Assembly: GCF_016632335.1 (NCBI RefSeq)
Contig: NZ_JAEPBG010000002.1
Coordinates: forward strand, 186,001 to 250,000
Reading direction: 5' to 3'
DNA length: 64,000 nucleotides
Origin: Noviherbaspirillum pedocola
GTDB taxonomy: Bacteria > Pseudomonadota > Gammaproteobacteria > Burkholderiales > Burkholderiaceae_D
Shown here: one piece after another, positions 60,774 through 63,947 of the stretch
How the letters are laid out: every line of letters begins with the position of its first letter
How positions within the stretch are numbered: position 1 is the first letter of the stretch
Program-made: the position numbers and the translations under genes
Notes under the pieces: model-generated
The model's input: only the letters and a program-made list of their open reading frames with translations
Database searches by the model: none
Told to the model about the DNA's origin: nothing

Positions 60774-60789
60774 TGGCATGTTTATTGCT
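60774..60789 (+). promoter_or_regulatory. sigma-54 promoter of the PEP-CTERM gene
   Basis: TGGCATGTTTATTGCT matches TGGCAC-N5-TTGC with one mismatch and the exact GG-N10-GC spacing, about 42 bases upstream of the start codon. Confidence 0.78.
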
Positions 60790-60831
60790 CTGTACACTGG
60801 TGCTACATCACACAACCAGGGGGCTAACATC

Positions 60832-61605
60832 ATGTTCAAAAAAATATTGGTTTCGACAATTGCAGCAAGCGCAATGGCTTTGGGCTTTTCCACGGCTCAA
60901 GCTACGCCCTTAATGGACTTTGAGGTTTCGGATGGGGGAACGCCTTTCACGGCCGACAAGATTGTTGGTGGTTACCAGGAAATAATTACCCTGAACACCA
61001 ATGGAACTTTCAACGTTGCGCTCAAGTGGACTGCCGATGGTTTTTACGCTAATGACGGCGCTACGCCGGTAACGAGCAATCTGAAGCAGACCTATAACCT
61101 CTACGCTCTGTACACGGCGAGCGGTGTCTATTCCAACAACGGCTTTGGATACAGCTTCGATTTCTCGCCGAATACCGGTAGCCTGGTCATTTATAAAGAT
61201 CCGACCAAGGACACAGGTTTCACGGCTCCTGCCACGGGAAGCGGAAGTTTCACTACATCCAATTCCAGCGACGATGTGAAACTCGCCGACGGCGTGCCCG
61301 TCAGCGGTAGTGGCCTGTTGATCAACCTGGGTAACTCCAATGCGGGTAGCTTCGGCGCCACTCAGGAATTGTCCTTGACGCCTGACGGTGCAAGCTACTT
61401 CACGAAGCCAGTTCCGTTCTACGGCCTGACCTTGCAATCCGGACAGTTCAACAGCAACTTCGCTCCTGGTCAAACTGTAGCGGTCAATGGATCGCTCGAC
61501 GTCACTTTCGATGTGCCTGAACCCGGCATGGTCGGCTTGCTCGGCCTCGGCATGCTGGCCGCCGCAGTCAGCCGTCGCAAGGGCGTCAAGCGCACGTTCG
61601 CCTGA
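60832..61605 (+). CDS. PEP-CTERM sorting domain-containing protein, PepA-like
   Basis: 257 aa from ATG60832. The N-terminal signal peptide (MFKKILVSTIAASAMALG.. ending QATP) leads to a beta-rich extracellular domain with TPLMDFEVSDGG and ADKIVGGYQEIITL. The C-terminus has the full sorting signal: VPEPG, a hydrophobic helix (LLGLGMLAAAV) and the basic end SRRKGVKR. Exosortase and archaeosortase-like enzymes process such proteins. The core and the sigma-54 promoter resemble the flocculation-associated PepA group. No exosortase gene lies in this window. Confidence 0.85.
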   Translation: MFKKILVSTIAASAMALGFSTAQATPLMDFEVSDGGTPFTADKIVGGYQEIITLNTNGTFNVALKWTADGFYANDGATPVTSNLKQTYNLYALYTASGVYSNNGFGYSFDFSPNTGSLVIYKDPTKDTGFTAPATGSGSFTTSNSSDDVKLADGVPVSGSGLLINLGNSNAGSFGATQELSLTPDGASYFTKPVPFYGLTLQSGQFNSNFAPGQTVAVNGSLDVTFDVPEPGMVGLLGLGMLAAAVSRRKGVKRTFA

Positions 61606-62206: not shown

Positions 62207-63520
62207 TCAGTACGCGAAGTAGGGCCCGGTGCCGCCCGACGTGCTTGCTCCCTCGATCGCCGTGAACACATTGCGTCCGAAGAAGAAGGGCAGGCCCCAG
62301 TCAAACATGGTGCTTGCCAGTCCCGAGCCGCCGAGTGAGTCGAACGCGGTATTGTTGGTCGAGAACAGGCTTTGCGCATTTGCTACGGTGAAATTGACCG
62401 TGCCGCTGGCATTGTTCAAGCCGGTGTTCGTGGCAGTCAGCGTCTGTGACGAAGGCGGACAGTAGAAACCGGAACTGCAGGCCGGAATCGTCGTGTCATT
62501 GAAGAAATAACCATTCGACCCGCTGTCGATGAAGGCGCTCCGGAATGTCCGTCCCTTGTAGACAGTGGTAAAGGTGCCGGTGCTTGCGCTGATGGTATAG
62601 ACGGTGGCATTGCCCAAGCCATTGTTGCCCGCCGTGCCGATGCCGAATACCAGCGTGCCGATTGCCGTGCCGACGGTGCCGCCAGGCAGGCTCGGCATCT
62701 TCAGCAGCACGCCGTTGTTGTTGACCGCGAATTTCGCTACCGGGTTGCTGACCTGCTGCGCCGCAGGCACGGCGACACCCTGGCAGGTACTGGAACTGCA
62801 GGCATAGTAGACGCCGATGTTCGCGCTCTGCGCGCAGGAACTACCGCAATCCTCGCGCTGCGGGCCGATGCCGATAATGCCGTTGCCGCCGAAGGATTGG
62901 ACGGTTGCGGCCACAACGCCGGTGCTGGAGCATGCCGACGGAATGTTGGCAAAGTTCGGGTCGGACATGGTTTGCACCGGGAGTGAAGCTGCGGTCTCGC
63001 CACCGATGCGAACATCGGCCAGACGCACAGGTCCCCACACCGAGCTGTCAGCGAACTGGGTGCATTCGCCCAAGGCGCCCGCGCTTGTCGATTGCTGTGG
63101 CAGCCCAAGCGAAGGGTCGAGCAGCGAGGAGAACACACGGATGCCTGACGAACCCGTGTCGACAATCATGTGATCGATGGTTTGACAGCGGTTCGTGCCC
63201 GGCGCGCAAATCGTCACGCTGGTGTACGGCACATTGACCGTATTGCCTGCAGGTCCGGCATCCACGACAACGGACACCGCATTCGCAGCCAAGGCTGTGC
63301 CATCTTGCGCGGTGCTGCCACTCGTACCCGAGCCGCTGGTCGGCGTGGTACTGCGCGGGGCCGAGTTCTGAGCAGCGTCGGAGCTGCCGCCGGAACTGCT
63401 GCCGGAGTCATTGCCGCCGCCGCCGCAGGCAGCAAGTACGAAAAGCAAGCCAAGACTGGCCGCGGCCAGAGAACGGCGCAAGGCGTTGCCGCCACAGGAA
63501 ACGCTATTCGAGGTCTTCAA
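62207..63520 (-). CDS. DUF3443 family lipoprotein
   Basis: 437 aa. The signal sequence ends in a lipobox (LFVLAAC, Cys32), followed by a Gly/Ser/Thr-rich linker to about residue 75. The DUF3443 domain has MIVDTGSSGIRVF at Asp121 and FIDSGSNGYFF at Asp332, two aspartic-protease-like D-(T/S)-G-S motifs, plus NGIIGIGP between them. Several Cys pairs are present. It overlaps the end of the DUF2844 gene by 17 bases and is co-transcribed. Confidence 0.85.
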   Translation of the reverse strand: MKTSNSVSCGGNALRRSLAAASLGLLFVLAACGGGGNDSGSSSGGSSDAAQNSAPRSTTPTSGSGTSGSTAQDGTALAANAVSVVVDAGPAGNTVNVPYTSVTICAPGTNRCQTIDHMIVDTGSSGIRVFSSLLDPSLGLPQQSTSAGALGECTQFADSSVWGPVRLADVRIGGETAASLPVQTMSDPNFANIPSACSSTGVVAATVQSFGGNGIIGIGPQREDCGSSCAQSANIGVYYACSSSTCQGVAVPAAQQVSNPVAKFAVNNNGVLLKMPSLPGGTVGTAIGTLVFGIGTAGNNGLGNATVYTISASTGTFTTVYKGRTFRSAFIDSGSNGYFFNDTTIPACSSGFYCPPSSQTLTATNTGLNNASGTVNFTVANAQSLFSTNNTAFDSLGGSGLASTMFDWGLPFFFGRNVFTAIEGASTSGGTGPYFAY

Positions 63521-63947
63521 TGTTCACTCCTGCTGGTACTGCCTGCGGCAAATAGGCCTTGCCTGCCAGCGCACGCATCCGCCCTTCGGAAAGAATCACA
63601 ACATTGGGCTTGTTCACTTTCAGCTGACGGCGGCCGATGCGTCCGGAAGCCGCTTCCTGTTGAAAATCACTGAAGTATTGCCCGAGAAGCTGACCGAGGT
63701 CAGGCTTGACCGGTCCTTGCCAGGTAACGGCGAAAACCTTGCCGGCATTGTCTGCATATTCGCGCACCGTCGTTCCGGCTTCGGTTTGCATTTCATGGAC
63801 GGTATAGCTGCCCATACTGCTGCTGCCGCTGGCCTTGGCGCGCATCTGCGTTCGGTCGCTCTGTACGCTGCTGACATCGCCGCCAAGCGCCGCGAAGGAC
63901 AGGGCCGGTATGCCGAAGAGGAGTAAGGCGAAATATTTGGAGTTCAT
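63504..63947 (-). CDS. DUF2844 domain-containing exported protein
   Basis: 147 aa from ATG63947, with AAGGGAAACAGG upstream. Signal peptide MNSKYFALLLFGIPALSFAA. The DUF2844 core includes LGGDVSSVQSDRTQM, VHEMQTEAGTTVREYADNAGKVFAVTWQGP and LGQLLGQYFSDFQ. DUF2844 and DUF3443 genes are regular neighbours in Burkholderiales, suggesting a two-component periplasmic or surface system. Confidence 0.87.
   Translation of the reverse strand: MNSKYFALLLFGIPALSFAALGGDVSSVQSDRTQMRAKASGSSSMGSYTVHEMQTEAGTTVREYADNAGKVFAVTWQGPVKPDLGQLLGQYFSDFQQEAASGRIGRRQLKVNKPNVVILSEGRMRALAGKAYLPQAVPAGVNIEDLE

Follow-up and report, generated by a model that had tools for sequence, protein, structure and literature searches.

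The pepsin family A1, with members such as the Irpex lacteus aspartic proteinase (1wkr) and rhizopuspepsin (2apr), is a close known system to the one considered here, a pair of adjoining genes for proteins of the families DUF3443 and DUF2844 in Noviherbaspirillum pedocola (contig NZ_JAEPBG010000002.1, positions 186,001 to 250,000; this whole stretch of 64,000 nucleotides is referred to as the window). The bacterial pepsin homologues that were reported from seven species in 2009 were predicted to be intracellular proteins without a signal peptide (PMC2761423). A surface exception is PecA (PE_PGRS35), a mycobacterial aspartic protease that cuts PE proteins as well as itself (PMC6819658), while RloA of Pseudomonas aeruginosa is a secreted retropepsin-like enzyme (PMC12239564). 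The bacterial pepsin homologues and shewasins (PMC2761423, PMC4814920) share with DUF3443 a bacterial origin and two lobes, but DUF3443 carries a predicted signal peptide and lipobox. PecA (PF20729) is likewise a bacterial aspartic protease that carries DTG/DSG motifs and is associated with the surface (PMC6819658), the location of DUF3443 being a predicted one, but it differs in being a type VII secreted PE protein. RloA is a bacterial aspartic protease that is exported and shares its operon with other genes, as is predicted for DUF3443, but it is not a two-lobed pepsin, and in place of DUF2844 it is accompanied by an ATP-grasp protein and a transglutaminase-like membrane protein that is inactive (PMC12239564). 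Compared with family A1, DUF3443 is a predicted lipoprotein with a Phe in the putative flap, has no basic prosegment in cis, is paired with DUF2844 and, for the protein of the window, gives no PF00026 match at E up to 1. In the literature searched, which excluded subscription journals and annotation databases, we found no mention of DUF3443 or DUF2844, and the arrangement of a lipid-anchored pepsin with a small exported partner was not found there; the text matches to PF11005 in malaria-parasite papers were, among the matches listed, look-alike gene codes. To our knowledge, PecA has neither a lipobox nor a DUF2844 partner.

The pair reads on the minus strand of 62207-63947, DUF2844 first and DUF3443 second:

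63504..63947, minus strand: DUF2844 gene, exported partner, 147 residues; PF11005, E 2.9e-43
62207..63520, minus strand: DUF3443 gene, 437 residues, TTG start; PF11925, E 7e-138
63504..63520, minus strand: 17 nucleotides shared by the end of DUF2844 and the beginning of DUF3443, should the TTG at 63520 be the start

Both assignments pass their curated cut-offs (460 bits against 25 for PF11925, 147 bits against 22.4 for PF11005), and the source genome holds one DUF3443 match. Two start codons are candidates for DUF3443: the TTG at 63520, which has AGGAG six bases upstream as read by eye, and the TTG at 63481, chosen by our heuristic, which leaves a gap of 22 nucleotides after DUF2844.

Predicted fold and catalytic residues of DUF3443

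A preliminary description of the locus, made from the DNA letters alone, had placed DTGSSG at Asp121, DSGSNG at Asp332 and NGIIGIGP between them, and had seen in this the arrangement of a two-lobed aspartic protease. The numbering is right (NGIIGIGP spans residues 213-220), and the arrangement is borne out, with a D[TS]G motif in each lobe and both Asp conserved. The elements concerned are as follows, with counts over the aligned relatives:

63143..63160, minus strand: N-lobe catalytic motif DTGSSG with Asp121; Asp121 and Ser124 in 52/52
63032..63055, minus strand: putative flap, Phe156 to Trp162-Gly163, from an hhalign alignment to a bacterial pepsin homologue (L126)
62861..62884, minus strand: NGIIGIGP, N-lobe hydrophobic-hydrophobic-Gly element; Gly214 and Gly217 in 52/52
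62510..62527, minus strand: C-lobe catalytic motif DSGSNG with Asp332; Asp332 and Gly334 in 52/52
62273..62299, minus strand: WGLPFFFGR, close to the C terminus and probably the hydrophobic-Gly element of the C lobe; Gly409 and Gly415 in 52/52

Four sources supplied the sequences: 60 relatives, 300 genomes belonging to the order, 199 belonging to the phylum of an Acidobacteriaceae genome, and a named collection of genomes. They gave 56 loci, mostly best-scoring matches (16 of 46 match places in one search gave no locus), from which four rows were dropped, namely L025 and L027 (truncated at the 5' side but retaining the second motif), L026 (frameshifted) and L119 (a duplicate of L013); the remaining 52 contain no near-copies, the highest pairwise identity being about 90%. 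Matches confined to the signal-peptide and linker region (L028-L030) were left out, and eight later loci, checked for motifs and neighbours only, were not added to the alignment. No relative was found in viral contigs and phage records.

Conservation of both Asp across the family, a check proposed in the preliminary description, extends from the 52 rows to 54 of 54 when two divergent plasmid copies are added, and both motifs are present in the eight loci outside the alignment. Gly126 is also invariant in the 52 rows, and residue 335 is Ser in 48 and Thr in four. At position 123, 50 rows have Gly, whereas L020 and L035 have Ala and so read DTA for DTG with the Asp kept. With Asp121, Asp332, Ser124 and the Gly positions counted above as 52 of 52 invariant, the DTG/DSG-type motifs are not due to chance. 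The putative flap residue 156 is Phe in 47 rows and Tyr in five; hhalign, in an alignment to a single homologue, puts Phe156 on a Tyr of L126 that we read as the flap Tyr, a place which we take to be that of pepsin Tyr75. Arg128, found in 51 of 52 rows, presumably occupies the position of pepsin Trp39.

Comparison of a predicted structure with pepsin, likewise proposed at the outset, gave a pepsin fold over both lobes when an AlphaFold2 model was compared with the PDB; the block holding Asp332 has a mean pLDDT (predicted local distance difference test) of 66. The DUF3443 protein of the window does not match PF00026 at E up to 1, PF00026 is absent from the ten families matched at E up to 0.1 by 54 DUF3443 members, and neither phmmer with the single protein nor a 14-row profile found an aspartic protease in the PDB; a 54-row profile gave a weak match to one. 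Aligned by hhalign with single bacterial pepsin homologues, the family profile reached a Prob of 4.6 for L126, 5.0 for L130 and 0.1 for L127, the first two matches covering one motif each, against best control values of 1.0 for 110 neighbour proteins and 1.5 for 60 shuffles; these matches are suggestive of a link to the bacterial homologues and do not amount to proof (two further PF00026 loci, L128 and L129, were left out for want of a motif frame on the strand examined). At the level of genomes, PF00026 scored over its cut-off in five of 349, and the ten that have DUF3443 are not among these five. PF20729 was over its cut-off in none of the 54 members and, at E up to 0.1, matched L024 alone (E 0.0019, 18 bits, cut-off 33).

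Taken as model-based assignments, the pepsin fold and the catalytic residues of DUF3443 are well supported, and the family is supported as a predicted pepsin-fold aspartic protease, which we keep out of PF00026 because that profile is unmatched. That DUF3443 is proteolytically active we regard as quite probable. A locus that matched DUF3443 below the cut-off only (L136, genome G675) contains on its reverse strand an open frame of 4118 residues, in which a pepsin-like part (LVDTGSDSLLL ... DGIIGF ... LLDSGAVSKL) precedes repeats that we take to resemble TolB-type propellers.

Export and anchoring

The lipobox reported earlier is present, ending at Cys32, and lipobox-like Cys residues are general in the family:

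63425..63436, minus strand: lipobox LAAC with predicted lipidated Cys32 and Gly at +2
63290..63424, minus strand: linker of 45 residues rich in Gly, Ser, Thr and Pro, from Cys32 to the catalytic domain

By a simple rule, 48 of 51 members have such a Cys before the domain, and L023 adds one more by eye. In Escherichia coli the residue at +2 decides the membrane to which a lipoprotein is sorted. Since 40 of the 48 have Gly there and none has Asp, DUF3443 is most likely anchored in the outer membrane, as judged by this rule. The 48 linkers have a median length of 25 residues (range 3-125), of which a median of 87% are Gly, Ser, Thr, Pro, Asn, Ala or Gln. Many secreted A1 members possess a prosegment of the pepsinogen type, which is basic; no basic prosegment in cis was found in the 48 DUF3443 linkers, and with a median Lys plus Arg fraction of 0 the linker is not of this type.

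The DUF2844 partner and its pairing with DUF3443

Pairing with an exported DUF2844 protein, the remaining element of the preliminary description, proved near-obligate: DUF2844 adjoins DUF3443 in 63 of 68 loci, and the adjacency is kept across Acidobacteria, Oligoflexia and Burkholderiales while the neighbourhoods vary. We infer from the gene spacing, and from in-frame NTGA overlaps of four nucleotides in 16 of 47 homologous pairs, that the two genes are probably co-transcribed. At three loci (L051, L054, L056) the order is swapped, with DUF2844 downstream, and the genes are still adjacent; in two of these genomes the PF11005 search found no DUF2844. One genome of 7.8 Mb (G284; L031, L137, L139-L141) has six DUF3443 and six DUF2844 matches, which suggests specialised paralogous pairs. 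A mirror-tree comparison over 50 pairs gave r 0.73, a value that could reflect shared species history; as it was tested against label shuffles only, we do not claim coevolution. A Pfam scan of 110 of 136 heuristic open reading frames of at least 100 residues, the 26 at the pair itself being left out, found no third operon member, although genes without a Pfam family would escape it. The pair stands as a real and conserved module of two genes.

Several loci depart from the usual form. Two plasmid-borne DUF3443 genes are orphans without DUF2844 and keep both Asp (L124 8034-9104 and L125 7974-9050); each lies directly downstream of a gene for a TAXI-family TRAP solute-binding protein. In a plasmid of Burkholderia glumae (L122 7250-9062) the pair has chemotaxis genes (cheA to cheZ) on one side and flagellar genes (flhB to fliA) on the other. 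The frame-broken DUF3443 of L026 belongs to a Caballeronia symbiont, and the adjoining DUF2844 is still open; conversely, at L007 and L059 (G057) the DUF2844 frame has an in-frame TAG next to an intact DUF3443.

DUF2844 itself is modelled by AlphaFold2 as a compact domain (pLDDT 87.6), with one Trp, one Gly and one Pro in its core invariant, each in 50 of 50. Its predicted mature N terminus is conserved in the family:

63879..63890, minus strand: DUF2844 residues 20-23, ALGG, predicted mature N terminus

The pattern [AG]xLG occurs in 46 of 51 members and at the mature N terminus in 45, the L031 copy lying inside the signal peptide. As in the PepSY-like and BLIP-like periplasmic proteins (4dsd, 3db7, 4fr9, 3d4e), which are small and exported too, helices may pack against antiparallel strands in DUF2844; the Pfam profiles of these groups gave no match at E up to 1 to 14 DUF2844 members. 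Small aspartic-protease inhibitors with helix-plus-sheet folds include Ascaris PI-3 and squash SQAPI, which are not among the 50 matches listed, a result that excludes neither. Matches of the DUF2844 profile in the PDB to designed repeat proteins and STING were judged to be due to chance.

Possible roles of the pair

We consider it likely, at a probability of roughly 0.7, that DUF3443 is an envelope-anchored pepsin-fold protease and DUF2844 its dedicated partner in the periplasm, which helps it to fold or inhibits it in trans. DUF3443 would be exported, lipidated at Cys32 and held by its flexible linker, with Asp121 and Asp332 as the presumed catalytic dyad under a flap in which Phe156 stands at the usual place of Tyr. 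It has no pepsinogen-like prosegment. Folding help or latency would come from DUF2844, which would be exported from the adjoining gene and bind it in the periplasm, and the tethered enzyme would act at the envelope on proteins or peptides as substrates. If this is true, an extracytoplasmic class of aspartic proteases, lipid-anchored and two-lobed, is added in Acidobacteria, Oligoflexia and Burkholderiales, in up to six copies per genome; two DUF families gain a testable function, and the pair offers a model for the control of an aspartic protease without a built-in prosegment. A more elaborate version, which we hold to be rather doubtful, is that of a split zymogen, an outer-membrane-tethered pepsin of diderms made without a prosegment, for which DUF2844 provides folding and latency in trans; DUF2844 would possibly be PepSY-like or BLIP-like, perhaps insert its mature N terminus (xLGG) into the cleft, and its loss would switch the enzyme on.

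Because the domain of DUF2844 is conserved and confidently folded, we lean weakly towards an inhibitor or folding helper rather than a substrate; this is its most likely single role, at somewhat less than even odds, with the substrate as main rival. An active DUF3443 that cuts DUF2844, for instance near its mature N terminus, and so releases a signal or structural protein would fit the one-to-one pairing, the xLG conserved at that terminus in 45 of 51, and the precedent of PecA, which cuts the N-terminal PE domain off secreted proteins at the mycobacterial surface (PMC6819658). The compact domain and the invariant Trp, Gly and Pro exceed what a cleavage site needs, however, and as a full account of the pair we consider this improbable.

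Still less probable is that the pepsin fold has been retained as a non-catalytic binding module with DUF2844 as its ligand, the situation in plant xylanase inhibitors of the TAXI type being of this kind as regards the fold. The 47 of 52 rows with Phe in place of the presumed flap Tyr, Arg128 where pepsin presumably has Trp, and the two DTA members could be taken in this sense, but none of the 52 rows has lost either Asp or the Ser/Thr at positions 124 and 335, and orphans and DTA members alike retain the two Asp. The orphans, together with a mirror-tree correlation that could stem from shared species history, would instead suit genes that are neighbours only through a shared need for export or expression or through joint travel, with no direct interaction. 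Against such an account, which we rate as very improbable, stand the adjacency in three groups despite changing surroundings, the loci where the genes remain adjacent with swapped order, and the genome in which each family has six matches.

Near the pair, the window also encodes on the plus strand (60778-61605) an exported protein with a C-terminal sorting tail (VPEPGMVGLLGLGMLAAAVSRRK), which we take to be of the PEP-CTERM-like kind.
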